Shown here piece by piece: positions 47,117 to 64,000 of a stretch of 64,000 nucleotides of DNA (its first letter is position 1; each line of letters starts with the position of its first letter). The notes beneath the pieces are model-generated. The model did no database searches, had not been told where the DNA came from, and was given only the letters and a program-made list of their open reading frames with translations. The position numbers were made by a program, and so were the translations under genes. Origin of the DNA: Stigmatella ashevillena (lineage in GTDB: Bacteria > Myxococcota > Myxococcia > Myxococcales > Myxococcaceae); the NCBI RefSeq assembly GCF_028368975.1, contig NZ_JAQNDM010000002.1:1302001-1366000 (forward strand). Reading direction: 5' to 3'.

Positions 47117-48490
47117 ATGAGTGCCCATGAGGACTTTCCACTCATGTCTCCCTCTGCCCATGAACTGGAACAGCCGGCCCGAGAGGAGCAAACCGGACCG
47201 GAGGGCGTCCTGACGCTGACCGAGCGCACCGAGCAGCTGAGGGCTCTGGTCCATGCCCTTCCAGACCTCATCTTCCGCCAGAGCCTCGACGGCACCTATC
47301 TGGACTTCGTGGTCAGCAAGGCCGAGGAACTGACCGCCTCCGCCGAGTCCATGGTGGGGGCCAACATCCGTCAGCTCGAACTGCCCCCTGCCCTGATCGA
47401 CAAGGTGCTCACGCACCTGAAGCGCGCCATCGAGGACGGCACCATCGAGGTGTTCGAATACGAGCTACAGGTGCTCCGGGGCCTCCAGCACTACGAATCG
47501 CGCATTGTCCGCTGTGGACCGAATGAGGCCGTGTGCATCATCCGCAACGTCACCGAGCGCAAGCAGGCGGAAAAACGCCTCCTGGATCAGGAAGAAGAGC
47601 TGCTCCGCCACCGCGCGCACCTGGAGGCTCTTGTCCATCAACGGACCGAGAAGCTGGTTCAGGCCACACGCGCCTTGGAGGAACGTCAGGCGCAGCTCAT
47701 CCAAGCGGAGAAGATGGCCTCCTTGGGACAGATGGCCGCAGGGGTCGCGCACGAAATCAGCAGCCCCGTAGGCTATGTGCTGAGCAACCTGGGAGCGCTC
47801 ACCGAGTACATCTCGATTCTCATGCCCCAGCTCCGTCTTCAGCAGGAGCTGCTGGCCTCTTCAGCGCCAAGCAGTGCCCGGGAGTCCTTGATCGAGCGCA
47901 TGCGCGCGTCGTGGGAGCGGGAAGACGCGAAGTCCATTCTTGAGGACATGCCCGAGTTGCTCCAGGAGTCCCTTGTGGGCGCCCGGCGCATCCAGGAGAT
48001 CGTCCAAACCCTGAGGCTGTTTGCTCGCGAAGATGCCAAGGAGCCGCAGCTCACCGACCTGAACGCGGAGCTGGAATCCACGCTGAAGATGGTGTGGAAC
48101 CAGCTCAAGTACAAATGCACGGTGAAGCGTGACTTCGGGCCGCTCCCCCTCCTCCGTTGCCATCCCACCCAGCTGTCCCAGGTCTTCACCAACCTGCTCA
48201 TCAACGCTGCCCAGGCCATCGAGACCCAGGGAGAAATCGCCATCTCCACCCGCCACGAGAACGGCGAAATCACCGTGCGAATCTCGGATACGGGAAAAGG
48301 GATGACGCCCGAGGTCCGCTCCCGGCTCTTCACCCCCTTCTTCACCACCAAGCCCCGGGAGCAGGGAACAGGCCTCGGCCTCTCGGTCAGCTACAGCATC
48401 ATCGCCAGCCATCAGGGCCATATCGAAGTTCAGAGCGAGCCGGGCCAGGGCACCACCTTCACCATCCGCCTGCCCCTCTTGACCGAATAG
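47117..48490 (+). CDS. Cytoplasmic PAS histidine kinase
   Basis: This 457-residue histidine kinase has no membrane segments. A PAS domain at about 35-150 (ALVHALPDLIFRQSLDGTYL) leads into a coiled coil at 150-200 (LLDQEEELLRHRAHLEALVH). The H-box AAGVAHEISSPVGYVLSN has His212. The dimerisation helix pair carries a long insert to about 300. The HATPase has FTNLLINAAQAIETQ, ISDTGKGMTPEVRSRLFTPF, TTKPREQGTGLGLSVSY and ends ...IRLPLLTE. No adjacent response regulator is seen. Ser-Ser replaces the usual Asn-Asn after the phospho-acceptor motif (HEISSP), which is tolerated in this class. Signal unknown; a PAS-bound redox or small-molecule cue is likely. Confidence 0.92.
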   Translation: MSAHEDFPLMSPSAHELEQPAREEQTGPEGVLTLTERTEQLRALVHALPDLIFRQSLDGTYLDFVVSKAEELTASAESMVGANIRQLELPPALIDKVLTHLKRAIEDGTIEVFEYELQVLRGLQHYESRIVRCGPNEAVCIIRNVTERKQAEKRLLDQEEELLRHRAHLEALVHQRTEKLVQATRALEERQAQLIQAEKMASLGQMAAGVAHEISSPVGYVLSNLGALTEYISILMPQLRLQQELLASSAPSSARESLIERMRASWEREDAKSILEDMPELLQESLVGARRIQEIVQTLRLFAREDAKEPQLTDLNAELESTLKMVWNQLKYKCTVKRDFGPLPLLRCHPTQLSQVFTNLLINAAQAIETQGEIAISTRHENGEITVRISDTGKGMTPEVRSRLFTPFFTTKPREQGTGLGLSVSYSIIASHQGHIEVQSEPGQGTTFTIRLPLLTE

Positions 48491-48525: not shown

Positions 48526-49614
48526 TCACCCCTTGGGAGGGGGAGGCAGCAGCCCCAAGAGGGCCTTGCCGAGAAAATCCTTGATGACGGGCGCGGACCA
48601 GGCCATCAGCGGACCGCTGTGCGCATCCCGGACGTAGCGCTCGATGTTGCGGCTCCGGAGGTAGCCACTGCCCCCGGCGAGCTCCAGGGCCGAGGTGGCA
48701 ATCGACAGGGCCGCCTCGTTGGCCACCATCTTGGCCTGCATCTGAAGCATGGGAGCGTCTGGCTCGCGGCGATCCGTGGCGAGCGCGCCCCGGATGGCCA
48801 GGGACCTGGCTGCCTCCAGGCGCGTGCTCATCTCCGCCACCGCGAATTGCACCCACTGCATCTGCGCGAGCGCCTTGTTCTCCGGAGGAAGCTTGCGCTC
48901 CTGGGCGTAGCCAATGGCAAACGTCAGCGCCGCCTCGGCCAGGCCAATCGAGATCCACGGCAATCCCATGGCGATGGCATTGGGCTGCGAGGGATCAATC
49001 ATCAACCGCCGCGAATCCGGGAGGAACGTGTCCTGCAAGTGCAGAAGCTGGCTCCGCGTGGCCCTCATGCCCATCGTGTCCCAGATGTCCTCCACGCGGA
49101 TGGAGGCGTCCTTGTCGATGAGGAAGAAACCAGGCTGTCCATCGCAGAGGGCGTTGGTGAGGAGGTACTGGGCGTGCTCGCACCCGGACACGAAGCGCTT
49201 GGCCCCAGAGAGGCGCCAGCCCCCTTCTACCCGGCGGGCCTCCTGGTGCGGCATGAGGAACATGTTGCCGCTGGTGGGCTCGGACAGGGCATTGCCGAAC
49301 CAGGCCCCACGGCGGAACTCGGCATCGAGAGAAGCACGCTGGTGAGGCTCCTTCAGGGCCAGGAAGGTGACGCCCGCGCCCTGATGCATCAACCAGACGG
49401 TGCCAAAAGAGGCGTTCCCACGGGACAGGAGGCTGACAATCTTGCCGAAGGTCAGCCACGAGGCACCCTCGAGCAGCACGGTATTCAGCGGAGACTGGGA
49501 GATCGCCTCTTTCCCCTCGCTGGGGAAGGTGGTGTCTTGGTCATGCTGGGCGGAATGCTCCGCCAACAAGGAGCTGATCCGCTCCGCCTCCGTCAGAAGC
49601 TCTGCTTCCGTCAT
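48526..49614 (-). CDS. Acyl-CoA dehydrogenase-like flavoprotein (small form)
   Basis: This 362-residue ACAD-family protein shows the FAD/substrate tract FGNALSEPTSGNMFLMPHQE, then GWRLSGAKRFVSGCEHAQYL and the C-terminal ALELAGGSGYLRSRNIERYV. The N-terminal helical part is short (EAERISSLLAEHSAQHDQ), as in ACADs acting on ACP-bound or aromatic substrates. It is last in the minus-strand run of the biosynthetic cluster, 76 bases after the longer ACAD gene. It may desaturate a carrier-bound acyl chain or act as a flavin oxidase on the amine product. The TamT-like role could belong to either ACAD. Confidence 0.85.
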   Translation of the reverse strand: MTEAELLTEAERISSLLAEHSAQHDQDTTFPSEGKEAISQSPLNTVLLEGASWLTFGKIVSLLSRGNASFGTVWLMHQGAGVTFLALKEPHQRASLDAEFRRGAWFGNALSEPTSGNMFLMPHQEARRVEGGWRLSGAKRFVSGCEHAQYLLTNALCDGQPGFFLIDKDASIRVEDIWDTMGMRATRSQLLHLQDTFLPDSRRLMIDPSQPNAIAMGLPWISIGLAEAALTFAIGYAQERKLPPENKALAQMQWVQFAVAEMSTRLEAARSLAIRGALATDRREPDAPMLQMQAKMVANEAALSIATSALELAGGSGYLRSRNIERYVRDAHSGPLMAWSAPVIKDFLGKALLGLLPPPPKG

Positions 49615-49690
49615 CGCTCTACCTGCCTGGCCGTGGGGAACTCCAAGCCCGCGGAAGCCAGAAGCGGGCTGGCCGCATCCTATCCGGCCC

Positions 49691-51433
49691 TCAGGACGGT
49701 GGCATTCCCGCGAGTTGGAAGGGCGCTATGGAGAACAACCGCTTCTCTGCGGACATCCTCTCCATTTCCCGCACGGCCCCCTCACGCTGCTCGGTGGAGA
49801 TACCCGCCACGTTGGGGGACACTCGGTTCAAGCAGAGGTGGACCCAATCGCCACGCTGGAAATACTCCGGGAGACGCTCCCGGTTGTAGAGCCAGAGCCC
49901 CAAGCAGGCCGCGGCGGCGTGAATCTCGCAATAGCGCTTGGCCAACGAAAACAGTCCCGCCGAGCGGCCAAACTGGATCCCTTCCAGATCCTCGACCTCC
50001 GTGAGCCTGTCCCCCATCGCGGAAACTTCCTTCAGCAGGTGCGATGCGTGGCGGCTCAGCGCGGCCACGAGGTTTCCTCCGGCAGCCCCCGTCTCCTCCA
50101 GCTTCTGAAGCGACCGGAGGGAGCCATGAAGAGACTGAACCACCAGATCCCGGCCCCGGGCGGAAAGCGTCAGTTTCGACGGATCCAGCGCGGGCAGAGG
50201 CGTCGCCAGGCGGAACAGCGCCTCTGTCCGGGCCTCGTCCGCGATGGGCGACGCCATGCTCTCGACCAGGTACCGCAACTGCAAACCGAGTGCGTTGAGG
50301 TTCACCGCCGTCGAACCATCGAAGAGACTGACGACCGCGGCATCGCGCGAGAGCTTCTGGAAGGCTCCGCTCCAGTGATCCTCTCGAATGTAGTACCGGG
50401 CCCCCAGCACCACGGCCACATCCCGGATCATGGCTTCGACGGTCGCGGGAACGAAGTACTTCACGACGGCGGACCCCACACTCAACTGCTCCGGGGCCAC
50501 ATGCGCCAGGCGTGCCCCCGCCACGGCCACGGCATCCGAGAGCAGCAGGTCCGCGAAAGCATCCGTGAGTGTGCTCCTCACATTCGAGATGGCGAGCACG
50601 GTGCTGTTGTACAGCTTGCGTGAGCGCGCGAAGTCCAACGTGCACCGGAGCGCCGTGTCCCCTGCCCCCAGGGAGAAGCCCGAGCACAGCAGCCGCGTCA
50701 ACTGGATCACCCGCATCACGGTCTCGAGACCGCTCCCAGGAGCGCCCACGAGCGCCTCTGCGGGAAGCTCCGCGGCCTCGAAGGTCACTCCACTGATGTC
50801 GGCCCCCCGGATGCCGTGCGTGCGGATCTTCTGCACATGCCGGTACGTGCCAGGAGCAAGCCGGGCTTTCTCGACCACGAGCAGCGAGAGTCCTCGTGGA
50901 CCGGCGCCGGGCTCCGTCCGAGCCAGCACCACGATGGCCTGGCTGCGAGTGCCGTTGTTGATCAGCCACTTCTCGCCCGTCAGCGAGAACCCCGTGGGGG
51001 TACGCACGGCACGCATGTCCGTGGCGAGCAGATCGCTGCCGTGTGCCCGTTCCGTCAACCCCAGGGACACAGGGGCTCCCGTGGCCGCAATGGCCGCGAG
51101 GTGCCGCTGCTGCTCGGCACTGCCGGAACCCCACACGGGGACCAGTCCAAGATAGGTCTTGCCATGACCGATGGCCAGGCTCAGGTCACGGCGCGACAAC
51201 ACGCGCGCCAGCGCAAGGACTTCCTCCAATGAGCGGAGCCGGCCGCCCAGGTGCGTGGGGATGTAATAATTGTGGAATCCCCAATCCCTGAGCGCGGAGA
51301 ACGCAGCGTCAGGGAACATTTCCCGTTCATCGAGTTCCAGCGCCTTCTGGAAGGAACTCACACTGGAGGCATCTCCGGGATCTCCCAGAAAGGCCTCCAA
51401 TGCCTCGGCGCTGGCATAGGTCTCCGTCAACAC
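49691..51433 (-). CDS. Acyl-CoA dehydrogenase-like flavoprotein, TamT-like
   Basis: This 580-residue ACAD starts at a GTG with GGAGGGGGAG five bases upstream. The N-terminal two thirds form the ACAD core: FHNYYIPTHLGGRLRSLEEV, VSLGLTERAHGSDLLATDM, SLTGEKWLINNGTRSQAI, GADISGVTFEAAELP and a C-terminal helical part with FDGSTAVNLNALGLQLRYL. An extra C-terminal helical domain of about 180 residues follows, as in long ACAD forms. In the tambjamine pathway, TamT is an ACAD-like dehydrogenase that inserts a double bond in an ACP-bound fatty acyl chain; position and order here (after FAAL-ACP and aminotransferase-reductase genes) fit that job. Regiochemistry is unknown. Confidence 0.87.
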   Translation of the reverse strand: MLTETYASAEALEAFLGDPGDASSVSSFQKALELDEREMFPDAAFSALRDWGFHNYYIPTHLGGRLRSLEEVLALARVLSRRDLSLAIGHGKTYLGLVPVWGSGSAEQQRHLAAIAATGAPVSLGLTERAHGSDLLATDMRAVRTPTGFSLTGEKWLINNGTRSQAIVVLARTEPGAGPRGLSLLVVEKARLAPGTYRHVQKIRTHGIRGADISGVTFEAAELPAEALVGAPGSGLETVMRVIQLTRLLCSGFSLGAGDTALRCTLDFARSRKLYNSTVLAISNVRSTLTDAFADLLLSDAVAVAGARLAHVAPEQLSVGSAVVKYFVPATVEAMIRDVAVVLGARYYIREDHWSGAFQKLSRDAAVVSLFDGSTAVNLNALGLQLRYLVESMASPIADEARTEALFRLATPLPALDPSKLTLSARGRDLVVQSLHGSLRSLQKLEETGAAGGNLVAALSRHASHLLKEVSAMGDRLTEVEDLEGIQFGRSAGLFSLAKRYCEIHAAAACLGLWLYNRERLPEYFQRGDWVHLCLNRVSPNVAGISTEQREGAVREMERMSAEKRLFSIAPFQLAGMPPS

Positions 51434-51458
51434 AGGGGCTCCCCCTCCGCGAACGCGT

Positions 51459-54347
51459 TCACAACGAGTGAGCTGCGGCACGGGCTCCGAGAGAGAAGCC
51501 GTGCATGCGCGCCACCTGCATGATTTGCAAGACCTGGGACTTGGTGATCGCTCCGTGACTGTAGTGCTCACGCATTCCCGTCAGGCCCATCAGCAAACCC
51601 TCGCAGCAGCAGGCGTAGAGATGGCCTTCCGGCATGTCCAACCCACGGATCGTGAAGTCCTTGTCCAGCGGCAATTGGACCAGCCCCCCCTCGACGACGG
51701 TCACATTCGGCATCGAGCGGACAGCGTCGTCGACATCCGAAGGAATGGCCACATCGCAGATCACCACCGGAGCCGAGCCAAGCATCTGGGCATGGATCAC
51801 CGGGGTCGGCGAGTTGCTCGCTCCGAGGATCAAGTTGGCATACCGCAGCATCTCCGGGTCAGCGGTCACCGTGATCGGCGCCTTGTCGCGAAGCTCGGCG
51901 TTGATCGCCTCGTACAGCTGCCTGGCGTCGGTGGAGGCGGTCCGCGCCTCGACCATGTCACGGATGACACGGGTCTCCGCGATGGCCGAGGCGATGCCAC
52001 CGAGCTGAGGCTGGCCTGAGGAAGCCCGTGTCCTGGCCACGAGATCCCGTGCGGCATGGAGGTAGATATCCGCCGCCACGTTCTCGACCTCCCGGAGCCG
52101 TCCGGGCCTGCCGAGAAGAACCATGCGGGGCACCCGATCCGCCAGCACCTGGCTGTAGATGCTGCCAATGTTGCCGCTGGCTCCGATCGCCGCGAAGCAG
52201 GATGTCGAGAGATCGATCTCCGCGCGGGATGCGGCTTGGAGGATGGACTCCAGCCCCATGGCCACCGTGAGGGAGTTGCCGGTCGTCACGGCAATGCGGC
52301 CATCGACCCGCAGGCCACGCCCATTGCCCGTCACGATGGAAGTAAAGCCGCCCAGCGCGGCCACAGTGCAACCCCGGTCCGCCGCGAGCGCTACCGCAGC
52401 CTCGATCCGCTCGACCAGCCCATCCCGCTCTTCGCTCTTCATCAGGGCGGCGAAGCTGTCGGAGTCCGTGGGAATGCCGACGACCGTGAGCGACACGCGG
52501 CGGCCACTGCTCGATTGGATGATCCTCTCGTCGACGACGAAGGGATCCATGACGGGGTAGATCCGGCGAATCAGCTCGGCGAGCTGCTCATCGGTAAACG
52601 CCGACATGCTGGCATCCCATTGCCGGACGTTCTTGGACTTCACGAAATAGCCCACGAAGGCCACCCGTGCATTGACATCCCGGGATGCTGCCTCACGGAC
52701 TGGACCGCGGTACGACTGCATCGGAGGAGCCAGCGCGGTGGCGCGGCGCGGGTTGCCCACCGCGAAGCGGAACAGCTCGTACGCGTTCTGATTCTCGAGG
52801 ATCTCGCAAACGCTGCGAAGCGCTCCCAGAAGGATGTCGCACTCGTCCTCGGAGATCAGCGCGGACGGCTCGATGCGGACCAGTGACTTGTTGGAGATGG
52901 TGGGAGCGATGCGCAGCCGGTGCTCGTGCAGCAAGTATCCGGAGATGACGTAGCCAAGCAACCCCTGGGCGAAGACTTCGGCAATCGCGGGAGAGCCACG
53001 GTCCTCTTGCCGACGGAACTCGACGCCCAGCATGAGCCCAGCGCCGCGGACATCCTGGATGACCGTCGGGAAATCCATCTTGAGCTGCTGGAGCCCATCC
53101 TTGAGCTGCTGGCCGCGCTCGACACAGTTGCGCATCAGCTCCGGTTTTCCATCAATGAGCTCCAGCGCCTTGAGCGCCACCGCGGAGCTGATCTCATCCT
53201 CCGCGAAGGTCGAGGTGTGGATGAGGCCGAACTCATGCTCGTAGTGGCTCTTCTCGACGAGCAGCGCGGACACCTTGGCCACACCACCGCCGAGCCCCTT
53301 CGACAGGATGTAGTAGTCCGCGAAGATCCCCTGCTGCTCGGAGAACAGGAAGGTGCCGGTGCGCCCCATGCCGCTCTGGATCTCGTCGAAGACGAGCGGG
53401 AAAGAGCTCTCGGTGGCGAGATCCCGGCAACGCTTCATGAACGGCCGGGACATGAGCCGGATACCGCCCTCGCCCTGAAGCGGCTCGACGAAGAGCGCCG
53501 CGACGTTGGAGTGCGTCTCCTCCACCAGGGAGATCTGGTTATCGGCTCCCACCGACAACGAATAACAGGCCAGCTTCGTACCTCGGACCGCCTCTTCCAG
53601 CCCCCGTTCGTCCCCCGGTTCGATGAACAGGGTCCGCGGCGAGCTGTGCAGAAAGTGGCGCCGGTAGTCCGCATAGTGCGTCAGCGCCACGGAGCCCAGG
53701 GTCTTTCCATGGAACGCCCGCTCCAAGGCGATGAACACCGAGGGCGTTTGAAGGACGCGGTGGTTGTTGGCTTGCACCGCGGCCACGACGAGCTCGAAGT
53801 CATCCACACTGGTGAGACGGAGCCACGCGCGGGCACGCTCATAAAAGTGGCTCGACAGCGTGTAGCGCCGCTCATGCAGTCCCCGGCGCGCCGCATCGAC
53901 CTTGTCGTCAAGCTCCTGCTTGATGCGGCTGATTCGCTTGGCGTGCGAGTAGGTGGCGTGCTTCATCGCCGCCTCGACCGCCTCGGTTCCCGTGCTCGCG
54001 AGCGTCGTGATGTAGGCATTGCCGGTCCGCGCCAACATCATCTGGTGCAGCTTGGCGCCCAACCGGCCGGCGTTGGCACGGCAGCTCATCTGCGCCAGGA
54101 AGGGGAGCTTGTCGTCGTACGCCTTCTTGATGGTAGCGACCAGCTCGGGGTGGTTGTGCCCGAAGATCAACGCCCCGTATCCCCCCAAGAAGTCCGTGAC
54201 CTTGACCTCCTCACCCTTCTCGTCCCGGTAGAACAGGAAGTCGCCTTCTGCGCGATGGAAGACGACGTCCAGCTTCAACGACTGGAGAATCTCTCCGATG
54301 CGCGGGCGGCAGTGGCGCGTGTACAGTTCACTCAGGGAATCAGTCAT
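51459..54347 (-). CDS. Aminotransferase fused to acyl-ACP-reductase-like domain (TamH-like)
   Basis: This 962-residue bifunctional protein has an N-terminal class III PLP aminotransferase (1 to about 520): GYGALIFGHNHPEL, STGTEAVEAAMKHATYSHAK, ERAFHGKTLGS, PLVFDEIQSGMGRTG (Asp321) and Schiff-base Lys350 in ILSKGLGGG. The C-terminal part (about 555-962) matches cyanobacterial acyl-ACP reductase: TVAALGGFTSIVTG, VTTGNSLTVAMG, the Rossmann FAAIGASGNIGSIY (Gly722, 725, 728) and LYACCCEGLLMGL with the Cys913-915 cluster that holds the likely thioester-forming Cys. It should reduce an acyl-ACP to the aldehyde and transaminate it to a primary amine. TamH of tambjamine synthesis has the same two activities. 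It lies 3 bases after the FAAL-ACP stop. Confidence 0.9.
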   Translation of the reverse strand: MTDSLSELYTRHCRPRIGEILQSLKLDVVFHRAEGDFLFYRDEKGEEVKVTDFLGGYGALIFGHNHPELVATIKKAYDDKLPFLAQMSCRANAGRLGAKLHQMMLARTGNAYITTLASTGTEAVEAAMKHATYSHAKRISRIKQELDDKVDAARRGLHERRYTLSSHFYERARAWLRLTSVDDFELVVAAVQANNHRVLQTPSVFIALERAFHGKTLGSVALTHYADYRRHFLHSSPRTLFIEPGDERGLEEAVRGTKLACYSLSVGADNQISLVEETHSNVAALFVEPLQGEGGIRLMSRPFMKRCRDLATESSFPLVFDEIQSGMGRTGTFLFSEQQGIFADYYILSKGLGGGVAKVSALLVEKSHYEHEFGLIHTSTFAEDEISSAVALKALELIDGKPELMRNCVERGQQLKDGLQQLKMDFPTVIQDVRGAGLMLGVEFRRQEDRGSPAIAEVFAQGLLGYVISGYLLHEHRLRIAPTISNKSLVRIEPSALISEDECDILLGALRSVCEILENQNAYELFRFAVGNPRRATALAPPMQSYRGPVREAASRDVNARVAFVGYFVKSKNVRQWDASMSAFTDEQLAELIRRIYPVMDPFVVDERIIQSSSGRRVSLTVVGIPTDSDSFAALMKSEERDGLVERIEAAVALAADRGCTVAALGGFTSIVTGNGRGLRVDGRIAVTTGNSLTVAMGLESILQAASRAEIDLSTSCFAAIGASGNIGSIYSQVLADRVPRMVLLGRPGRLREVENVAADIYLHAARDLVARTRASSGQPQLGGIASAIAETRVIRDMVEARTASTDARQLYEAINAELRDKAPITVTADPEMLRYANLILGASNSPTPVIHAQMLGSAPVVICDVAIPSDVDDAVRSMPNVTVVEGGLVQLPLDKDFTIRGLDMPEGHLYACCCEGLLMGLTGMREHYSHGAITKSQVLQIMQVARMHGFSLGARAAAHSL

Positions 54348-54350
54348 GGC

Positions 54351-56522
54351 TCAGGTACTCTCGGTGGAGGCGCCACGGGTCAGGAAGTGCGCGAGAGAAG
54401 AGATGGTCGGGTAGTCCCAGGAGACGGTCGCGGGAATCTCTCGCCCCAGCTTCCGCTCCAACTCGCCTGCGATGAGCACCGAGGCGGCCGAGTCGAGGCC
54501 GTACTCCGCAAGCGGCTTGGCAGGATCGATCTCGTGCGGCTGGACACGCAGCATCCGGGAGACGCGGGCGACCAGCCATGCCGAGAGCTCGCGCTCCGCT
54601 GCGTCGGACAGCGGCTCCGCGGAGGCCTTCACAGGGGCAGCCTCGGCCACCACCGCGGCAGGCGCGGGGGTCTGCTGCGGACCGGTCCAGGTGGCAATGG
54701 GCTCCAGCTCCTCCTTCATGAAGAGCTCGCGGCAGGCGCGCCGCTGCACCTTCCCGCTCGAGGTCCTGGGCAACCGGTTGCGCTGGATCAGCACCAGCGC
54801 ATGCAGGTCCAACTCGTGGGACTCGGAGATTGCCCTGCGCACCGCGGTGCCGATCTGATCGAGCTGGTCCTTGGGGAACTCGCGTGCCACCTCCTGAACC
54901 ACGACGAGGCGCTCCTCGCCCTGCACATCGACCGACACCGCGCACGACATCAGGAAGTGCTCATTCACGCGGTCGACGGTCAGCTCGATGTCCTCGGGGT
55001 AGTGGTTCGCCCCACGGATGATGATCAGATCACTCGCGCGCCCGGTGACGAACAGCTCCCCATTGCGCAGGAAGCCCAGATCCCCGGTGCGGTAGAAGGA
55101 CCGGGAGTCCGCTGCTCCCGCGATGAGCGCACCGAAGCGGTCGGCGGTCTCCTTCTCACGGTTCCAGTACCCTCCCGTCACGTTGGGGCCTGACACCCAG
55201 ACCTCTCCCACCTGGCCCTCCTCGGCCAACACCCGGCTCTCCGGGAGGACGACGGCCAGCTTCTGACCCACCGCGCTCTTCCCGCAGCCGATCACCACAC
55301 GCTCGTCGCGCGTCTCGCCCTCCGCCACCTCGACAGCCCTGCCACGCTCCAGCTCCGTACGCTTGACGGCGAGCTTCACGGGGGGCGCTTCCTTCACGCC
55401 TCCCGTCACGAACAGGGTTGCCTCCGCGAAGCCATAGGTGGGGTAGAACGCGCTCCGGCGGAAGCCGCAAGAGGCGAACGCTGCGGAGAAGCTCTCCAGC
55501 GTCTCACTGCGCACGGGCTCCGCGCCGTTGAAGGCCAGCTCCCAGCAGGACAGATCGATGCGGGACTTCTCTTCCTCGGTCACGGACTCGACACAGAGCC
55601 GGTAGGCGAAGTCCGGTGCACCGCTCGTGGTCAAGCGATGGCGCGAGATCAGATCCAGCCAGCGGAAGGGCCGCTTCATGAACGACATCGGCGACATCAG
55701 GAAGCACGGCGCGCCGAGGTACATCGGCTGGAGGATGTGGCCGATGAGCCCCATGTCGTGGAACACCGGCAGCCAGCCGCCGATCACGTCCTTCTCCGTC
55801 AGGCCGAACCCCATGGTGATCATGCGCTCATTGGCGGTGATGTTCCCATGGCTGACCATGACCCCCTTGGGCGTGCCGGTCGAACCCGAGGTGTACTGGA
55901 GAAACGCCAGATCCTCTGACTTCGGGGAGAAGGAAGACCAGGCCTCGGCCCCCGGCCCCTCCTGCGCATCGCTGGCCAACCAGTGCTCCACGCCCGGCAG
56001 TGCGCCGGCAATGTCACGCAGCTTGGTACGCACCGCGTCCGTGGTGATGACGAACCGGGGACTGGCATCATGGGCAATGGCGAGAATCCGGCGGACATTG
56101 CGATCCTGCGGGCGGAACGGAGGCCGCGGGGGATAAGCCGGGACCGCGATCACTCCCGCGTAGAGGCACCCGAAGAAGCCCGCGAGAAAATCAGGCCCAG
56201 GGGGATACAGCAGCAGCGCGCGAGCCCCTGCCCCATTGGCAGCCTGGAGTTGAGCGGCGATGGCGCGCGCCTGGCGATCGAGTTCGGCGTACGTCAACCG
56301 CACTTCGCCATGGTCCGTCTCGTACGAATAGGCCAGCTGATCCGCCTGATCGAGACTTCGCAGGCGCAGCAGCGAGACGAGATCCAGGTCGCTGTACAGC
56401 GAGGGCACCACCTGCAACGCGCGCTGGGGGTTCGGAGTGCCCAACAAAGACGGCTTTGTGAGTTGCGTCTCCCCAGCATCATCCAACGGGAAGAGGGACT
56501 GGACCGCTCCGTGCGTGCTCAT
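54351..56522 (-). CDS. Fatty-acyl-AMP ligase fused to acyl carrier protein (TamA-like)
   Basis: This 723-residue protein activates a free fatty acid as acyl-AMP and loads it onto its own C-terminal ACP. The adenylating domain (about 40-600) has LTYAELDRQARAIAAQL, AVPAYPPRPPFRPQD (FAAL type), the P-loop LQYTSGSTGTPKGVMVSHGN, NGAEPVRSETLESF and YRTGDLGFLRNGELFVTGR with the C-terminal LPRTSSGKVQRRACRELF. A Pro/Ala linker leads to the ACP with EYGLDSAASVLIAGELE (phosphopantetheine Ser678). The ATG at 56522 has GGAAAG six bases upstream. It is the first gene of the minus operon and faces the PKS arm across the divergent promoter region. Confidence 0.92.
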   Translation of the reverse strand: MSTHGAVQSLFPLDDAGETQLTKPSLLGTPNPQRALQVVPSLYSDLDLVSLLRLRSLDQADQLAYSYETDHGEVRLTYAELDRQARAIAAQLQAANGAGARALLLYPPGPDFLAGFFGCLYAGVIAVPAYPPRPPFRPQDRNVRRILAIAHDASPRFVITTDAVRTKLRDIAGALPGVEHWLASDAQEGPGAEAWSSFSPKSEDLAFLQYTSGSTGTPKGVMVSHGNITANERMITMGFGLTEKDVIGGWLPVFHDMGLIGHILQPMYLGAPCFLMSPMSFMKRPFRWLDLISRHRLTTSGAPDFAYRLCVESVTEEEKSRIDLSCWELAFNGAEPVRSETLESFSAAFASCGFRRSAFYPTYGFAEATLFVTGGVKEAPPVKLAVKRTELERGRAVEVAEGETRDERVVIGCGKSAVGQKLAVVLPESRVLAEEGQVGEVWVSGPNVTGGYWNREKETADRFGALIAGAADSRSFYRTGDLGFLRNGELFVTGRASDLIIIRGANHYPEDIELTVDRVNEHFLMSCAVSVDVQGEERLVVVQEVAREFPKDQLDQIGTAVRRAISESHELDLHALVLIQRNRLPRTSSGKVQRRACRELFMKEELEPIATWTGPQQTPAPAAVVAEAAPVKASAEPLSDAAERELSAWLVARVSRMLRVQPHEIDPAKPLAEYGLDSAASVLIAGELERKLGREIPATVSWDYPTISSLAHFLTRGASTEST

Positions 56523-56735
56523 CACTGTCTTTCCGGGCTTCCTTGAAGAGGGGAAGCCGCCTAGCCGTGTTTGAATTCGAGTTTCACCGGATTCTTTCAA
56601 TTCTATTACTACTGGTTAAAATCGATTTCCAGACACTTTTTTACTTCCCTTCAGAAAAAATACCGCCTCCATGGAACTACATTTCCCCGCTTTCCAAGAA
56701 AAAGTGATCTGTAATGAACTCCCCTACCTCCACTT

Positions 56736-56755
56736 CTTGTGAACCCGTTCACAAG
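56736..56755. promoter_or_regulatory. Inverted repeat, candidate operator
   Basis: CTTGTGAA (56736-56743), spacer CCCG, TTCACAAG (56748-56755): perfect 8-base arms, about 57 bases upstream of the -35 box of the plus promoter. Size and symmetry suit a dimeric repressor or activator controlling both arms. The cognate regulator is not in the window. Confidence 0.6.
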
Positions 56756-56811
56756 GGTCTTGGAAGAAAAACGCGGGGAAAATCAAAGCGATGTTCGAGT
56801 CCTCACACGTC

Positions 56812-56840
56812 TTGACACGCTATGGCGGAAAAGTTAAATA
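56812..56840 (+). promoter_or_regulatory. Sigma-70 promoter of the acyltransferase/PKS arm
   Basis: TTGACA (56812-56817), 17 bases, TAAATA (56835-56840). The -35 is perfect and the -10 differs from TATAAT at two positions. Transcription would start near 56847 and leave a leader of about 100 bases before the acyltransferase ATG. Such a clean promoter is rare in this window. Confidence 0.7.
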
Positions 56841-56945
56841 CTCTTTCAACAACGGAAGTCCGGAAGAAGCAGAATCACCCTGGTAGTCAGTGCAACTGGA
56901 CAGCCCTTGGATAGACCAATTCCCAGCTGCGATTGGGGGAGCACC

Positions 56946-57812
56946 ATGACGAACATCTACGTCTTTCCAGGACAGGGCTCGCAGACGATTGGGATGGGGA
57001 AGGAGCTGTTCCCCCGCTACAAGCACCTGCTGCGGCAAGCGGATGCCCTGCTGGGATACTCGGTCGCGGAACTCTGCCTCTCGGGACCTCAGGAGCGCCT
57101 GAGCGACACCCGCTATACCCAACCAGCCCTGTACGTCGTCAACGCGCTCTCCTACCTGGAAGAGGTCCGGCGAACGGGGGTCCTGCCTGACTTCGTCGCG
57201 GGCCACAGTTTGGGGGAGTACAACGCCCTCTTTGCCTCGGGGGCCTTCGACTTCCTCACCGGCTTGGAGCTGGTTCAGCGCCGCGGGGCCTTGATGGCCG
57301 CCGCCACGGGAGGTGGAATGGCGGCAGTGCTGGGCCTGCCCCCGGAGCGCCTCTCGGCGATCCTGGATCAGCAGGGGCTCACGTCGCTGGACGTCGCCAA
57401 CCTCAATTCCCCCCAGCAGATCGTCATCTCCGGTCCCAAGCAGGACATCCAGGCAGCAAAGCCCATTCTCGAGCGGGAGGGTGCGAACACGGTGGTGCCG
57501 CTCAAAGTCAGTGCAGCATTCCACTCTCGCTACATGCGGAGCGCGGCGGAGCAGTTCTCGAGCTTCCTCTCGGGCTACCAGTTCGCCGAATTGAAGATCC
57601 CGGTCATCTCCAACACGGAAGCGGCCCCCTATGAGGATGGACGCATTGCCGAGACGTTGACGAAGCAGCTCGCCCATCCCGTCCGATGGATGGACACCGT
57701 CGCATTCTTGCTTCAGCAGCCCGCTCCGGAGATCCTCGAGATCGGACCTGGGCAGGTGCTCACGAGACTGACCCGTCAGATTGCCCAACACCCGCTCCGG
57801 GCCGCCTCCTAA
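56946..57812 (+). CDS. Discrete malonyl-CoA acyltransferase of a trans-AT PKS
   Basis: This 288-residue acyltransferase loads malonyl units onto ACPs of PKS modules that lack their own AT. It starts MTNIYVFPGQGSQTIGMGKE and carries the nucleophile motif AGHSLGEYNALFASG, the active-site Arg tract LVQRRGALM, GMAAVLGLPPERL and the specificity region SAAFHSRYM (malonyl type), ending with ILEIGPGQVLTRL. GGGGGAG lies four bases before the ATG. Its separate existence next to a PKS without an AT in the visible KS module defines the trans-AT type. A terminator-like hairpin separates it from the PKS gene. Confidence 0.95.
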   Translation: MTNIYVFPGQGSQTIGMGKELFPRYKHLLRQADALLGYSVAELCLSGPQERLSDTRYTQPALYVVNALSYLEEVRRTGVLPDFVAGHSLGEYNALFASGAFDFLTGLELVQRRGALMAAATGGGMAAVLGLPPERLSAILDQQGLTSLDVANLNSPQQIVISGPKQDIQAAKPILEREGANTVVPLKVSAAFHSRYMRSAAEQFSSFLSGYQFAELKIPVISNTEAAPYEDGRIAETLTKQLAHPVRWMDTVAFLLQQPAPEILEIGPGQVLTRLTRQIAQHPLRAAS

Positions 57813-57930: not shown

Positions 57931-60900
57931 ATGCGCCCCGCCTCCCAGATGTTCGAGGTGCTCTTCTCGAGCCGTGACGTCGAGCAGTTCCGCCAACTCA
58001 GCGCCGATTCCAATCCGCTCCATCTCTCCGACGATTACGCGCGCAAGAGTCCCTACGGCGCCCGCATCGTCCACGGGATATTGGGAGCCCTGACAGCGCT
58101 TGGCCGCTTGCCAGAGCGGCGAGCGCAACGCCTTGAGCGGCTGGAATTGCGTTTCCTCAACCCGCTCTTTCTCGATCAACCCTACCGGTTGGCTGTCACG
58201 CAGCCCTCGCCCTTGGAGGCGAGCGCGGTCCTCTCGGATGGAAGCCGCGAGTTGCTGAGGCTGGAGGCCCGGTTCACAGAGAAGACACCCGAGAGGGCCA
58301 CCGCGCGCGAGACTGCGCCAGCAACCGTCCTGCGAGAGCAAGCCGCAGACTTGAGCCTGGAAGACATCCGGCCAGGGCAGCTCCTCGAAGGCGTCTACGC
58401 ACCCCATTGGACGGAGCTGGCGGCGTTGATGGAGCGGCTGGGCGTCCACGGGAAGGGGATCGAGCTGCGGCAAGCCGCGGTGTTGGCTTGGAGCAGCTAT
58501 GCGATCGGCATGGAGCTTCCAGGGCGGAACGCCCTCTTCTCCCGACTCGATGCGGACTTCGACGCCGGGGGAGAGAGCGAGAATCCCCTGCAGTACCGGT
58601 CGCAGGTTGTCTCGGTCGAGACACAGTTCGGTCTGGTGCGGCTGAACGCGACACTCGGCGCATCCACCCCGGTGGCCCGCCTGGAACTGCGCGCTTTCGT
58701 CCGACCTTCATTGCCACCAGCGTCGGTGGCCTCCCTGACCCGCTTGCTGCCAGCCTCGCAAGCGCTCAAGGGCAAGGTGGCGCTGATCATCGGTGGAAGC
58801 CGAGGACTGGGTGCCTCGCTCGTCCAAGCGCTGGCGCTGCAGGGATGCACCGTCTATCTCAACTACTTCAAGAGCGAGCGCGAGGCCGCTGCGGTCCGCG
58901 ACACACTCGGAGTCGCCGCGGCCAACGTCCACTTGCTCCAGGGGGACGGAGCAGACCTGACGTGGTGTCAGCAGGCGCGTGAACAGATCCTGAGCCACCA
59001 CGGCCGCCTGGATGTCCTGCTCTGCAACGCGTGCCTTCCGCTGCAACCGCTGCGCATCGAACCGGATCCCACCTCGCGCCTCACCGAGTACGTCCGCAAG
59101 AGTTTGGCGCTCGTCCATGTTCCCCTGTCCTGCTTCTTGGAGGAGCTCTCTCGCCAGCAGGGTTGGGCCATGGTCCTCTCCTCTTCCGCCGTCAACGACC
59201 CACCGGCGGATTGGCCTCATTATGTGAGTGCCAAGTTCGCCGTCGAAGGGCTGGTTCGCACCGCGGCGCTCGAGTACCCCAAGTCCTCGTTCCTGCTCGC
59301 TCGCCCGCCACGCTTGCTGACGGACCTCACCAATACACCGCTGGGCAACGATGGCGCCCTTTCTCCGGAAGCGGTGGCTTCGGCCATCGTGCGGCGCCTC
59401 AACGGAGAAGCCTCTCAAGGCCAGGTGGCCGTGCTCGAGGATTTCACGCCTCAGCCTGTGCCTCCGCAGGCCCTTGAGACGAAGCCTGAACCCCGCCGCA
59501 AGCTGGCGGTCGCCGCCACCTTTACCTCAGAGCCCATCCAGGACAGCTTGGAGTTCTGGAGCGAGGAGCTGAAACTCGATCTGGAGGTCGAGTTCGCTCC
59601 CTATAGCCAGGTCTTCCAGGAGCTCTTGAACCCCTCGAGCTTGCTGAGCGAGAACACGGAGGGTTTCAACGTCTTGCTGGTGCGCCCGGAGGATTGGCTG
59701 CGCTACCAACACGCCAGCGAGGCAGAGGACCACGGCCCTTACCACCCGGCCGAGCAGGACTTCGCGACGTTCTCGGCGAAGGTCCGCAGCAGCACCGAGG
59801 ACCTCTTGGCTGCCGTGCGGGCACACAAAGCCCGGGTCCCGGCTCCGCTGGTGGTGGTCCTGTGCCCCGCGACCCCAGAGCTTCTGCTGCACAAGGGGTT
59901 CTCCCTCTTCCTGCGCCAGACGGAGGATCGGCTCGAGCGCGAGCTGAAAGGCCACCCGGGGACCTATGTCATCCGGGCCTCTGCATACGCGGACCATTAC
60001 CCCCTGGCGCAGTACCATGACGAGGTTCGCGAGCAGATGGGGCACATCCCCTACACGCCTGCGTACTTCAGCGTGCTGGGAACCCTCGTCATCCGCGCCT
60101 TGAACAGCATCCTGACGCCTCCCTTCAAGGTCATCGCGCTCGATTGCGACAACACTTTGTGGAAAGGGGTCTGTGGCGAGGACGGCGCGCAGGGCGTGGA
60201 GATCTCTCCGAGCTACCGTTACCTGCACGAGCAGGTCATCCGGCAGCAGGCGCAGGGCATGCTCATCTGCCTCTGCAGCAAAAACGTGGAGCATGACGTC
60301 TTCGAGGTATTCGAGCAGCGCCCCGAGATGGCGCTCAAGCGGGAGCACATCACCAGCCACCGCATCAACTGGCTGACCAAGTCGCAGAACCTGCACTCGC
60401 TGGCCGAGGAGCTCAATCTCGGCCTGGACAGCTTCATCTTCATCGACGACAACCCCGTTGAACTCGCGGAAGTGAAGGCCGCCTGTCCCCAGGTGCTGGC
60501 GCTGTGCATCCCCAAGGAGCCAGAGGCCATCCCCGCCTTTGTCGATCACATCTGGGCCTTCGACCGGCTGGTGGTCACCGAGGAGGACAAGAAGCGGGCA
60601 CAGATGTACCGCCAGAACAAAGAGCGGGACACCTTCCAAGGCTCGGCGACCAACTTCAACGAGTTCATCCAGGGCCTGAAGCTGGACCTGAGCATCACCG
60701 AGATGACGGCCGCACAACGCCCGCGGGTCGCGCAGCTCACGCAGCGGACCAACCAGTTCAACTTCACCACCGTGCGGCGCAGCGAGGCAGAGCTCCAGCA
60801 GCTCCAGGACTCGGGCTCCCATCAGATCTGGACCACCCAGGTCAGCGATCGCTTCGGAGACTACGGCCTTGTAGGCGTCGTCATCAGCCGGTGCGAGGCA

Positions 60901-63900
60901 GACCGCGTCACCGTGGACTCGTTCCTGCTGAGCTGCCGTGTCCTGGGGCGAGGCGTGGAGCACGCCATGCTGGCTCGCCTGGGCAAGCTTGCCCTCGACT
61001 CGGGCCTGGAATGGGTGGAGGCCACCTTCATCACCACCGCCAAGAACCCTCCGGCCCTGCGCTTCCTGGAGGCCGTGGGCGCGCAGTTCCGGCAAGAGGC
61101 GGAAGGGCGCGTTCTCTTCCGTTTCCCCGCAGCGTACGCGGCCAACATCACTTTCTCCCCAGACAAAGTCGATCAGAGGGATCTCGATCTGGCCGCCAAC
61201 GCGGAGAAGGGCCGGGCGCCCACCGTCCAGAAAGTGAACACCTCCCGGCTGGACTCGCTGGCGCGGATCGCTCAGGAGCTGTCCGATCCGAAGCGGCTCC
61301 ACGAGCGCATCCGTGTCCGCCGCTCTGGCCAACCGGCGGTGGAAGTCCCCGCGCTGAAGCCCCGGGCGCCAGAGCCCACTCCGTCGCCCCAGAGCACTGC
61401 GGCCCCTGCTCCATCCGTCAAAAACGATGCGGCCACCCTGCTGAACGCCACGGTCGGCTTTCTCCAAGCCGTTTTCAGCCGCTATCTCCCCGCGGCCAGA
61501 AGAGCGGTGACCGCCGAGACGCATTTCGAGTCCCTGGGACTCACGTCCTTCACGATCATCGACATCACGGTTGCGCTCGAGGATGAACTGGGCCGACTGC
61601 CGAAAACGCTCCTCTTCGAGCACAAAACGCTGGGCAGCCTGGCCCGCTATCTCATGGAGGACCACCGGGCAGCCCTCACTCAGAAGGTGAAGCTCGAAAC
61701 GCCTCCTGCTCCCGCGCCCAAGCCCGTGCCCGTGCTTGCCCAGGAGCCAATCCAGCCCACCCAGACAGTCCCCCCGCCCAGTGCCTACCCAGAAGACATC
61801 GCCATCATCGGGATGTCGGGCCGCTATCCTCGCGCACGGAACACCCAGGAGTTCTGGGAGAACCTGAGCGCAGGCCGCAGCAGCATTGGCGAGATTCCCA
61901 CGGAACGCTGGGACCATTCTCAGTTCTACGATCCGAGCGGCAAGCGGCGCGACAAGAGCTACACGAAGTGGGGAGGCTTCGTCGAAGGCGTGGGAGATTT
62001 CGACTCACTCTTCTTCAACATCTCTCCCAAGGAAGCCGAGCTGATGGATCCTCAGCAGCGGCTCTTCCTGGAAGTGGCCTACGAGGCCATCGAAGACGCA
62101 GGCCATACGCGCCGGACGCTGGGACGTGATGTGGGCGTCTACGTCGGCGTCATGGCCAACAACTACCTGCTCTTCAGCGCCAGTGCCTCCCTTGCCGGCC
62201 ACAGCCCTTACCCCTACGCGGACAACTACCAGGTCGCCAACCGCGTCTCCTACTTCCTGGACCTGAGCGGCCCGAGCCTGTCCATCGATACGGCTTGCTC
62301 CGCCTCGGGCGTGGCCCTCCATACGGCCTGCGAGGCACTCCGCTCCGGTGCGTGCAAGACCGCCATCGCCGGTGGCGTCAACCTGATCCTGCACCCCTAC
62401 CGCTACATCCAGTACTCGCAGATGACCATGCTGTCGCGAGACGAGCGGTGCCGGGCATTCGGCAGTGAAGCGCAAGGCTTTGTCATGGGCGAAGGGGTGG
62501 GCGCCGTCCTGCTCAAGCCCTTGAGCCAGGCCCTCCGCGACGGAGACCACATCCACGGCGTCATCAAGGGCAGCGCCGTCAATCACGGGGGAAAGACCAG
62601 TGGCTTCACCGTGCCAAACCCCACGGCACAAAGCACCCTGGTGGCCGAGGCCCTGGAGAAAGCGGGAGTGGATGCGCGCTCCATGAGCTACATGGAGGCA
62701 CACGGCACCGGCACACCGCTGGGCGACCCGATAGAAATCCGAGGGCTCACCGCCGCCTTCCGCCGCAACACCACCGACGCGCAGTTCTGCGCCATCGGCA
62801 GTGTGAAGCCCAGCATCGGCCACCTTGAGCCCGCGGCCGCCATCGCGGGGCTGACCAAGGTCCTGCTCCAGATGAGGCATGGCACCCTGGTTCCGTCCCT
62901 CAACTCCCAGGTGCTCAGTCCGTACATCGACTTCGAGGGTTCGCCCTTCTACGTCCAGCGCGAACGCTCCGAGTGGAAGCGCCCACGCTGGCAGCACAAC
63001 GGCGCCACCGTGGAAGCGCCCCGCCGGGCGGGCATCAGCTCCTTTGGAGCCGGCGGGGTCAACGCACACATCCTGGTGGAGGAGTTTGTCCCGGAGCCCT
63101 CCCCCACGTCCCTGCCTCAGGGACCCGCGCTCATCATTCTGTCCGCCAAGAACGCGGAGCGGCTGCGGGACAGCCTGGAGCGATTCCAGCGCTATCTTGC
63201 CCAGCAAGAACAGCTCGCTCCCCATCAGCGGCCCACCCTGGGAGACATTGCCTACACGTTGCAGGTGGGACGTGAGGCGTTCGAGGAGCGGGTGGCGCTC
63301 GTCGTTCAGGACAAAGAGGAACTCTCTCGGAAGCTGGCCCAACTGCTCGCGGGCGAGCGGAACCTGGAAAGAGTCTTCGCCGCCAACCTCAAGGGACAAG
63401 GTGGAACCCCAGGCACCAGCGCCGCGGGAGAAGACGCCCCTGAGCTCATCCAGTCCCACATCCGCGACGGCCGCCTGGACGCACTGGGGAAACTCTGGGC
63501 TCAGGGCTCGGAGATTCCCTGGGAACAGCTCCACGCAGGCAAGACCCAGCGCCGGGTGCCCCTGCCGACCTACCCGTTCGCCCGGATCCGTCACTGGCTC
63601 CCGGATACGGGGATGCTCACCCTTTCCCGGCAAGTCCACGCACCAGAAGGCCGACCCGCCTCCAGCAAGCCGCACCCCATGCTGGCCCGCGAGAACTCCA
63701 CGGAGGGGAAGCAGCGCTTCGAAGCCCAGTGGGATGGGAGCGAGTTCTACCTGCGGGACCATGTCGTGGCGGCTCGCAAAACCCTCCCAGGGGTCGCCTA
63801 CCTGGAACTGGCCCGTGCAGCCGGAGCGCTGGGCCGAGGAGGAAGCGTCGGGCGTCTGAGGGGCATGGTGTGGTCTCAGCCCATCATCGTCGCGGGGACT

Positions 63901-64000
63901 CCCGTGGAAGCCGGCGTTGAACTCCAAGCGGTCAAGAGTGGCACCGAGGTTATCATTGGCACGAGCACGCCAGGAGGCAGTCCCCTCGTCCACGCGCGAT
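57931..64000 (+). CDS. Trans-AT polyketide synthase: MaoC-SDR-FkbH-ACP-KS-DH..., 3' end beyond window
   Basis: One uninterrupted frame from the ATG at 57931 gives 2023 residues before the edge. Order: a MaoC-like hot-dog domain (1 to about 150; DSNPLHLSDDYARKS, IVHG); a second hot-dog-like stretch; an SDR/KR (about 280-460; KVALIIGGSRGLGAS, HYVSAKFAVEG); an FkbH HAD domain (about 640-1070; ALDCDNTLWKGVCGEDG with Asp738, Asp740, Thr742, and the GNAT-like LLSCRVLGRGVEHAMLARL); an ACP (Ser1206 in LGLTSFTIID); a KS (about 1288-1720; Cys1456 in DTACSASG, EAHGTGTPLGDPIEI, PSIGHLEPAAA); and the start of a DH (His1944 in DHVVAARKTLPGVAYLE). There is no AT in the module. FkbH should load glyceryl from 1,3-bisphosphoglycerate. 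The MaoC and SDR domains could convert it to a lactyl-type starter. Confidence 0.92.
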   Translation, partial: MRPASQMFEVLFSSRDVEQFRQLSADSNPLHLSDDYARKSPYGARIVHGILGALTALGRLPERRAQRLERLELRFLNPLFLDQPYRLAVTQPSPLEASAVLSDGSRELLRLEARFTEKTPERATARETAPATVLREQAADLSLEDIRPGQLLEGVYAPHWTELAALMERLGVHGKGIELRQAAVLAWSSYAIGMELPGRNALFSRLDADFDAGGESENPLQYRSQVVSVETQFGLVRLNATLGASTPVARLELRAFVRPSLPPASVASLTRLLPASQALKGKVALIIGGSRGLGASLVQALALQGCTVYLNYFKSEREAAAVRDTLGVAAANVHLLQGDGADLTWCQQAREQILSHHGRLDVLLCNACLPLQPLRIEPDPTSRLTEYVRKSLALVHVPLSCFLEELSRQQGWAMVLSSSAVNDPPADWPHYVSAKFAVEGLVRTAALEYPKSSFLLARPPRLLTDLTNTPLGNDGALSPEAVASAIVRRLNGEASQGQVAVLEDFTPQPVPPQALETKPEPRRKLAVAATFTSEPIQDSLEFWSEELKLDLEVEFAPYSQVFQELLNPSSLLSENTEGFNVLLVRPEDWLRYQHASEAEDHGPYHPAEQDFATFSAKVRSSTEDLLAAVRAHKARVPAPLVVVLCPATPELLLHKGFSLFLRQTEDRLERELKGHPGTYVIRASAYADHYPLAQYHDEVREQMGHIPYTPAYFSVLGTLVIRALNSILTPPFKVIALDCDNTLWKGVCGEDGAQGVEISPSYRYLHEQVIRQQAQGMLICLCSKNVEHDVFEVFEQRPEMALKREHITSHRINWLTKSQNLHSLAEELNLGLDSFIFIDDNPVELAEVKAACPQVLALCIPKEPEAIPAFVDHIWAFDRLVVTEEDKKRAQMYRQNKERDTFQGSATNFNEFIQGLKLDLSITEMTAAQRPRVAQLTQRTNQFNFTTVRRSEAELQQLQDSGSHQIWTTQVSDRFGDYGLVGVVISRCEADRVTVDSFLLSCRVLGRGVEHAMLARLGKLALDSGLEWVEATFITTAKNPPALRFLEAVGAQFRQEAEGRVLFRFPAAYAANITFSPDKVDQRDLDLAANAEKGRAPTVQKVNTSRLDSLARIAQELSDPKRLHERIRVRRSGQPAVEVPALKPRAPEPTPSPQSTAAPAPSVKNDAATLLNATVGFLQAVFSRYLPAARRAVTAETHFESLGLTSFTIIDITVALEDELGRLPKTLLFEHKTLGSLARYLMEDHRAALTQKVKLETPPAPAPKPVPVLAQEPIQPTQTVPPPSAYPEDIAIIGMSGRYPRARNTQEFWENLSAGRSSIGEIPTERWDHSQFYDPSGKRRDKSYTKWGGFVEGVGDFDSLFFNISPKEAELMDPQQRLFLEVAYEAIEDAGHTRRTLGRDVGVYVGVMANNYLLFSASASLAGHSPYPYADNYQVANRVSYFLDLSGPSLSIDTACSASGVALHTACEALRSGACKTAIAGGVNLILHPYRYIQYSQMTMLSRDERCRAFGSEAQGFVMGEGVGAVLLKPLSQALRDGDHIHGVIKGSAVNHGGKTSGFTVPNPTAQSTLVAEALEKAGVDARSMSYMEAHGTGTPLGDPIEIRGLTAAFRRNTTDAQFCAIGSVKPSIGHLEPAAAIAGLTKVLLQMRHGTLVPSLNSQVLSPYIDFEGSPFYVQRERSEWKRPRWQHNGATVEAPRRAGISSFGAGGVNAHILVEEFVPEPSPTSLPQGPALIILSAKNAERLRDSLERFQRYLAQQEQLAPHQRPTLGDIAYTLQVGREAFEERVALVVQDKEELSRKLAQLLAGERNLERVFAANLKGQGGTPGTSAAGEDAPELIQSHIRDGRLDALGKLWAQGSEIPWEQLHAGKTQRRVPLPTYPFARIRHWLPDTGMLTLSRQVHAPEGRPASSKPHPMLARENSTEGKQRFEAQWDGSEFYLRDHVVAARKTLPGVAYLELARAAGALGRGGSVGRLRGMVWSQPIIVAGTPVEAGVELQAVKSGTEVIIGTSTPGGSPLVHAR

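Follow-up and report, generated by a model that had tools for sequence, protein, structure and literature searches.

In excerpts of the published work on tambjamine YP1 (tam; Pseudoalteromonas tunicata), a one-pot reaction with PtTamA and PtTamH turned fatty acids into amines in vitro, and PtTamH is described as an aminotransferase (TA, residues 1-500) joined to a thioester reductase (TR, residues 547-941), with K340, G707/710/713 and C887 (PMC9594044). The 3,4 double bond is assigned to TamT in an extract of PMC5939613. Proteins of the acyl-CoA dehydrogenase (ACAD) family encoded between fatty acyl-AMP ligase (FAAL) and acyl carrier protein (ACP) genes introduce lipid double bonds according to part of PMC9113097, which cites a title naming delta-cis-3 for friulimicin. 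The present analysis concerns a 64,000-nucleotide window of the 10.95-Mb genome of the myxobacterium Stigmatella ashevillena (G000; contig C2, positions 1302001-1366000). Three adjacent genes in this window, for a FAAL-ACP didomain, a TA-TR fusion and an ACAD-like dehydrogenase, likely make a fatty amine, probably an alkenyl one, from a fatty acid, and part of the cassette appears to have been inserted at the stop codon of an older FAAL gene.

Domain calls were made by Pfam, NCBIfam and PDB comparisons. The own-phylum sample comprised 195 genomes including G000 and the own-genus sample seven (G000-G006), G005 being a closed genome of the same genus and sister to G000. The features are listed below; extended coordinates carry the window numbering on past 64000.

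47117..48490, plus strand: histidine kinase, conserved left flank outside the cassette (family and comparison with relatives)
48526..49614, minus strand: ACAD-like flavoprotein of 362 amino acids (aa), conserved chromosomal gene outside the putatively gained set, possibly co-transcribed
49691..51433, minus strand: predicted TamT-like FAAL-linked acyl-ACP dehydrogenase, 580 aa
51459..54347, minus strand: TA-TR fusion (TamH-like), 962 aa, class III aminotransferase followed by acyl-ACP/thioester reductase
54351..56522, minus strand: FAAL-ACP didomain (TamA-like), 723 aa, Pfam AMP-binding plus PP-binding
49685..54649, at the presumed ancestral FAAL stop codon: extra segment of ACP, TA-TR and TamT-like gene, absent here from G005, G004 and G001
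56523..56906, no strand: divergent intergenic region between the cassette and a polyketide synthase (PKS) cluster, within which homology to G005 stops at ~56635
56907..57812, plus strand: stand-alone malonyl transferase of trans-acyltransferase (trans-AT) type, gene no. 1 of the PKS cluster (TIGR00128, 340.9 bits)
57931..64000, plus strand: start of trans-AT PKS gene 1 (MaoC - SDR - FkbH - ACP - KS ...), running to extended 71811, in an extra stretch that reaches ~115.39 kb

The four neighbouring minus-strand reading frames given in the initial annotation for 48526-56522 were present. Counted from the FAAL-ACP end, the first three genes were separated by only 3 and 25 bp and had a third-position GC content of 0.80-0.85. 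The FAAL-ACP protein matched Pfam AMP-binding (2.5e-64) and PP-binding (8.2e-14), with the adenylating domain fused to an ACP as in TamA, and was 32-33% identical to five Pseudoalteromonas-group TamA proteins (676-704 columns). Both this call and the ACP serine named in the initial annotation, Ser678, held, the serine being counted from the ATG at 56522.

The aminotransferase-acyl reductase fusion was likewise borne out, with Pfam Aminotran_3 (9.5e-63) followed by a C-terminal domain of acyl-ACP-reductase type (6jzq, 1.4e-12; PigE, 1.3e-16). Identity to Pseudoalteromonas-group TA-TRs was 31-33% (six rows). As in TamH, an N-terminal class III aminotransferase with its pyridoxal phosphate (PLP) lysine preceded a reductase with GxxGxxG and a catalytic cysteine; K350, G722/G725/G728 and C913 aligned with the PtTamH-numbered K340, G707/710/713 and C887, all five checked residues being kept. 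The predicted structure (AlphaFold, pLDDT 85.9) confirmed the TA fold (TMt 0.90 against CrmG), and the TR half of the model had no structure match among the best 50 rows. A 19-row tree placed the window protein in a set of eight with four tam TamHs, G022, G068 and a Planctomycetota metagenome-assembled genome (MAG; support 96/98), without fixing its position inside that set. A second, shorter TA-TR in the same genome (887 aa, ~31-32% identical; L016:7467-12683, C2:512467-517683) lay between a P450 and a FemAB/GNAT-like gene, and its tree neighbours were proteins of G103 and Pseudomonas gingeri.

The 580-aa protein was taken from GTG 51433, a start chosen by inference from the upstream AGGGGGAG; the listed 626-aa reading frame begins at 51571, inside the TA-TR gene. 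It is a large ACAD of the TamT family, 34-36% identical to five TamT proteins (554-559 columns), with the SLFDGS motif in common. In a tree of 23 ACAD rows it fell in a group with TamT and the phylum's FAAL-linked ACADs, separated from TamG (100/100); its position within that group was not fixed, and the program gave a long-branch warning. The FAAL-linked gene context was seen directly, and action on an ACP-bound acyl chain is predicted.

The initial annotation counted two ACAD-like flavoenzymes in the set. Both 49691-51433 and 48526-49614 were ACAD-fold proteins (Pfam), but the 362-aa gene at 48526-49614 fell outside the set because it was conserved in genomes without the cassette. Its protein was matched in 27/195 phylum genomes at 1e-25 and, at 72-100% identity over nearly the full length, in 20 genomes including its own (94% in G005, 88% in G004 and G001, 72-77% in 16 further genomes). 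Among the 19 other genomes with this orthologue (72-94%), 18 lacked a TA-TR match at 1e-60, and the remaining one, G103, had a shorter TA-TR match of the paralogue type. In place of the YEGT of typical ACADs the protein reads MAWSAPV, and Glu is missing from the usual position (both by eye). On these comparisons the gene is old chromosomal backbone and not part of the cassette. A role as second desaturase or amine N-oxygenase was dropped on the same grounds of conservation.

Comparison with relatives located the difference. The genome of G005 was colinear with the window over 9151-49657 (small gaps) and 54650-56635, the two blocks being ~30 bp apart, and homology came back at extended 115390. 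In G005 the FAAL gene adjoined the 362-aa gene, and no TA-TR or PKS gene lay between the two or next to them; G001 had the same pattern on both sides, and G004 on the left side, its right side being without match in the stretch covered. An orthologue of the FAAL gene stood beside the 362-aa gene in four of the seven genus genomes (G000, G005, G004 and G001); near the 362-aa gene G002 had merely a 33% AMP-ligase, and G003 (at a contig edge) and G006 had none. The FAAL portion of the window protein (54650-56522) was the orthologue of the relatives' stand-alone FAAL and the ACP portion (54351-54649) was additional, the end of the former being the start of the latter. The junctions delimited an extra segment of ~49685-54649 (4.97 kb), exactly at the relatives' FAAL stop codon, and the surroundings of that stop codon (ATAGGATG) were found upstream of the 362-aa gene in the window.

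Over the shared left flank (24 kb), identity was 91.4% between window and G005, 85.5% between window and G004 and 85.4% between G005 and G004. Gain in the window lineage is the simplest explanation because the window and G005 are closest, yet G005, G004 and G001 have the same FAAL/362-aa junction; loss of the cassette in the relatives was disfavoured, since with these identities it would need two matching deletions. The comparison thus suggests that ACP, TA-TR and TamT-like dehydrogenase arrived as one segment, inserted where a resident stand-alone FAAL gene had its stop codon, the ACP thereby becoming fused to FAAL. Nonsynonymous (dN) and synonymous (dS) divergence were compared for five genes, namely FAAL, the 362-aa gene, the kinase, a peptidase and a 205-codon right-flank gene (115295). 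Only in FAAL was dN greater between window and G005 than between G005 and G004 (0.113 vs 0.086); dN was 0.033-0.057 in the 362-aa gene, the kinase and the peptidase. A larger FAAL dN on the window branch is as expected if the partner or substrate of FAAL changed there.

The cassette was rare. The TA-TR was matched at 1e-60 in 10/195 phylum genomes and the TamT-like protein at 1e-40 in 11/195, and G000 was the sole genome on both lists. At 1e-40, TA-TR matches occurred in 12 of 72,556 plasmid records, two of them covering at least 80%. The genome-collection scan used generic aminotransferase patterns, so that absence among the matches listed proves little. Locus comparison by phmmer covered 27 stretches, with seven compared with tam queries added, and none of these combined FAAL and TA-TR with a TamT-like protein scoring above 34 bits; in Pseudomonas gingeri (L049) the ACAD that accompanied FAAL and TA-TR scored 34 bits. 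The FAAL gene adjoined the TA-TR gene in the Planctomycetota MAG (L038) and lay ~2 kb from it in P. gingeri and in an Alcanivoracaceae MAG (L054). By Pfam, no ACP was found on the FAAL of these three or of G022. The initial annotation regarded use of a fatty-amine module outside tambjamines as new biochemistry; in genomes, a FAAL close to a TA-TR outside tambjamine clusters is no novelty, as these loci show, and the enzyme logic is known. In the titles and abstract openings of open-licence PubMed Central literature, no account of the cassette, its trans-AT PKS setting or its assembly by insertion was found.

Other gene sets were of looser likeness. In G022 and its relative G111 (L024, L028/L029), a stretch of ~10 kb contained a FAAL and a TA-TR together with an ACAD that was closer to the 362-aa protein (80-85 bits), possibly another fatty-amine set. 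In two further loci (L164 and L166, of G117 and G123) the FAAL was followed by a tandem pair of TamT-like ACADs and by a small ACP-like reading frame, as in dienoyl-lipopeptide clusters.

The tam reference was a set of 108 genomes of a Pseudoalteromonas genus, reached from locus L052. A TA-TR match at 1e-40 was present in 14/108, nearly full length in 10, and the neighbourhoods of six of these 10 were compared. In five of the six, four proteins occurred together: FAAL-ACP (333-367 bits), TA-TR (496-546 bits), a large ACAD (317-345 bits) and a small ACAD of TamG-like type. In the sixth, G283 (L137/L138, Pseudoalteromonas group), the TA-TR was without a FAAL, TamT-like or TamG-like match in the stretch covered, and clustered in the tree with a Photobacterium plasmid protein. 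Ten genes of G289 were identified by Pfam (FAAL-ACP, Rieske, ACP plus class I/II aminotransferase, AMP ligase, ketosynthase (KS), small ACAD, MacB-like permease, PPDK-type protein and, at the far end, the large ACAD among them), and this tam-like cluster was shown to have bipyrrole-type genes. This gene set fits the tam gene list in the excerpted text of PMC6667630. The TA-TR of G289 (941 aa; Lys340, Gly707/710/713 and Cys887) is taken as PtTamH or a very close copy because its length and residue numbers agree with those of PtTamH.

The tam genes spanned ~26 kb in the five tam-like clusters, with A and H ~8 kb apart and H and T ~11 kb apart, so that the match to tam in contiguity described initially failed. 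The equivalence to TamA, TamH and TamT, and the comparison of the four proteins with the Tam set, held for three genes (31-36% identity, nearly full length, residues kept) but not for the fourth, which reached only 39-41 bits to the TamG-like ACAD, its sole match in clusters that had no dedicated 362-aa equivalent; nor was a transferred tam operon seen. The window parts belong to the same families as the tam proteins, and the trees did not demonstrate a direct tam origin. Descent from the tam genes as one inherited unit did not fit a resident FAAL, an ACAD without a settled tree position and a TA-TR from a wider set, and transfer of a whole tam cluster was not supported, given the resident FAAL and the ACAD placement. 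The family scan ran from window 43.7 kb to extended 118.9 kb, window 1-43 kb lying outside it, and the genes covered included no recognisable bipyrrole (MBC) genes, in agreement with the initial annotation over that range. Genome-wide, TamQ-like matches were partial (25-39%) and the best TamD-like match (40% over 396 aa) was 1.3 Mb off.

A trans-AT PKS cluster, overlooked in the initial annotation, begins 384 bp from the FAAL-ACP gene in divergent orientation. It occupies a second extra stretch (~56636-115389, ~58.7 kb) missing from G005, with the stand-alone acyltransferase (AT), four PKS genes, a luciferase-like monooxygenase, an orphan protein of 451 aa, a fusion of AT and enoylreductase (AT-ER), a thioesterase and MacB-type exporter genes. 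The four PKS genes have 10 KS (by motif), a C-methyltransferase and a terminal thioesterase (TE), and no AT domain was reported in them. Modules with KS and without integrated AT, together with the AT at 56907-57812 and the AT-ER at 105180-107513, mark the cluster as trans-AT. The starter region (57931-62400) has MaoC-like, short-chain dehydrogenase/reductase (SDR), FkbH and ACP domains, the ACP standing before the first KS of PKS gene 1 (Pfam). Such starter sets can yield a lactate-type starter from bisphosphoglycerate. The orphan (L013:1787-3142, extended 103787-105142) had no family match and no match in the 194 other phylum genomes at 1e-20. Rhizopodin, an oxazole-bearing trans-AT hybrid, was rejected as the product, no condensation or adenylation domain being reported in the four PKS genes. 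A cis-AT PKS cluster lies just past the trans-AT cluster (extended 118939-162000, L013-L015) and was largely matched in G005; by this comparison, the location of cassette and trans-AT cluster is a variable site beside a conserved cis-AT PKS cluster.

In the proposed pathway, FAAL would convert a free fatty acid to acyl-AMP and load it on the fused ACP. The 580-aa FAD enzyme would then dehydrogenate the acyl-ACP, most likely to a 3,4 double bond, a placement that follows the TamT proposal and the FAAL-linked ACADs in extracts of PMC5939613 and PMC9113097. The TR half would take the acyl chain onto Cys913 and reduce it to the aldehyde, which the TA half (Lys350-PLP) would convert to a primary amine; by analogy, an alk-3-enyl amine is the most likely product. 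The chemistry would follow that of PtTamA and PtTamH, active in vitro in the excerpted report (PMC9594044), and its enzyme logic is already known.

The amine may be a building block or partner of the trans-AT polyketide, joined for example as an amide on release, because the PKS cluster flanks the same FAAL gene and is missing from the same sister genome. Tentatively, the product could be an alk-3-enyl amine, from a cassette built by in-frame insertion, joined to the FkbH-started polyketide, for example as an N-alkenyl amide. It is also possible, though again without strong expectation, that a free alkenyl amine, or a lipid from it, is made independently and that the adjoining PKS is a separate pathway at this variable site: an FkbH starter and a terminal TE make the PKS look complete, a further PKS cluster common to G005 lies beyond, and in L038, where the FAAL adjoins the TA-TR, the 22.8 kb covered gave no KS or AT match. 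Such independence sits less well with the position of TA-TR and PKS cluster, which flank one gene within ~2 kb, divergently, and with their distribution, the TA-TR and two tested PKS-cluster proteins being above cut-offs in G000 alone of the seven genus genomes except that G006 matched PKS gene 1 in its FkbH part only (43%). That the TA-TR acts in trans on the polyketide, releasing the chain and aminating it, with FAAL-ACP and dehydrogenase making an unsaturated acyl unit for other use, is unlikely. In Embleya scabrispora (L053:8674-11706) a TA-TR is flanked by two genes that matched KS and AT, and no FAAL match was found in the stretch, so TA-TRs can occur in PKS clusters without FAAL, possibly for reductive-aminating release of a polyketide; the polyketide line of the window, however, has its own TE, and the window TA-TR grouped with tam TamHs and not with the Embleya protein. 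Moreover, the TA-TR shares its extra segment with the dehydrogenase and with the ACP that is fused to FAAL, an arrangement that points to acyl-ACP as the TA-TR substrate. Least probable, to the point of being improbable, is that the adjacent conserved cis-AT PKS makes a lipo-product for which FAAL, dehydrogenase and 362-aa enzyme supply the priming unit, with the TA-TR as passenger. The FAAL and 362-aa genes of G005 do stand near the cis-AT cluster without TA-TR, but the TamT-like dehydrogenase belongs to the same extra segment as the TA-TR, absent here from G005, G004 and G001, and the TA-TR does not look decayed, all five checked catalytic or binding residues being kept.

Several observations weigh against an insertion-built fatty-amine cassette that serves the polyketide. 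Identity to the Tam proteins is only 31-36%; the TamT-like enzyme was not placed closer to TamT than to FAAL-linked ACADs without TA-TR alongside, and where the base usually stands it has Asp instead of Glu, a feature shared with TamT. The FAAL is old and paired with the 362-aa gene in relatives, so that its native acid may be unrelated to the amine. Its dS between window and G005 was somewhat raised (0.467 vs 0.28-0.39 for the three left-hand genes), and the right-flank gene 115295 was equally fast to G005 (dN 0.119, dS 0.552), this gene being fast in every pair (dN 0.185 for G005-G001). Among the enzymes recognised in the PKS cluster there was none dedicated to amide formation. Replacement of FAAL by a foreign copy was not favoured, dS being only moderately raised and the order window-G005 < window-G004 being kept.

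If the link to the PKS is true, the locus would be a gene-defined route by which an unsaturated fatty amine is added to a complex polyketide, that is, fatty-amine capping. Without it, the locus would still hold an apparently recent and readable step of cluster assembly, in which carrier, release and desaturation genes were inserted at a FAAL stop codon, and a second candidate enzyme set for converting fatty acids to alkenyl amines.

Among solved structures, the closest relative of the TA half was CrmG, the caerulomycin aminotransferase (5dds, 3.6e-89; TMt 0.90), and those of the TR half were cyanobacterial acyl-ACP reductase (6jzq, 1.4e-12) and PigE; CrmG and the cyanobacterial reductase are of a single domain type, unlike the window fusion. 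PigE, of prodigiosin MAP biosynthesis, likewise combines the two domain types in a single protein (the window fusion scored 313.6 bits against NCBIfam PigE, cut-off 850), but in reversed order (TR then TA in 4ppm) and with another substrate. Friulimicin/rotihibin-type sets of FAAL, ACAD(s) and ACP act on a lipid unit, as described in extracts of PMC9113097 and PMC8552735, and similar FAAL-ACAD sets were present in other phylum genomes; there the acyl chain passes to a nonribosomal peptide synthetase, whereas the window TA-TR would release an amine. With TamA/TamT/TamH of tambjamine YP1 the window shares three domain sets, the TA-then-TR order, the catalytic residues and 31-36% identity, and a MacB-like permease, comparable to the MacB-type exporter genes of the window PKS cluster, also occurs in the tam cluster of G289. 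It differs from tam in its contiguous genes, resident FAAL, trans-AT PKS neighbour and conserved ACAD-like gene downstream, with no bipyrrole genes recognised nearby.

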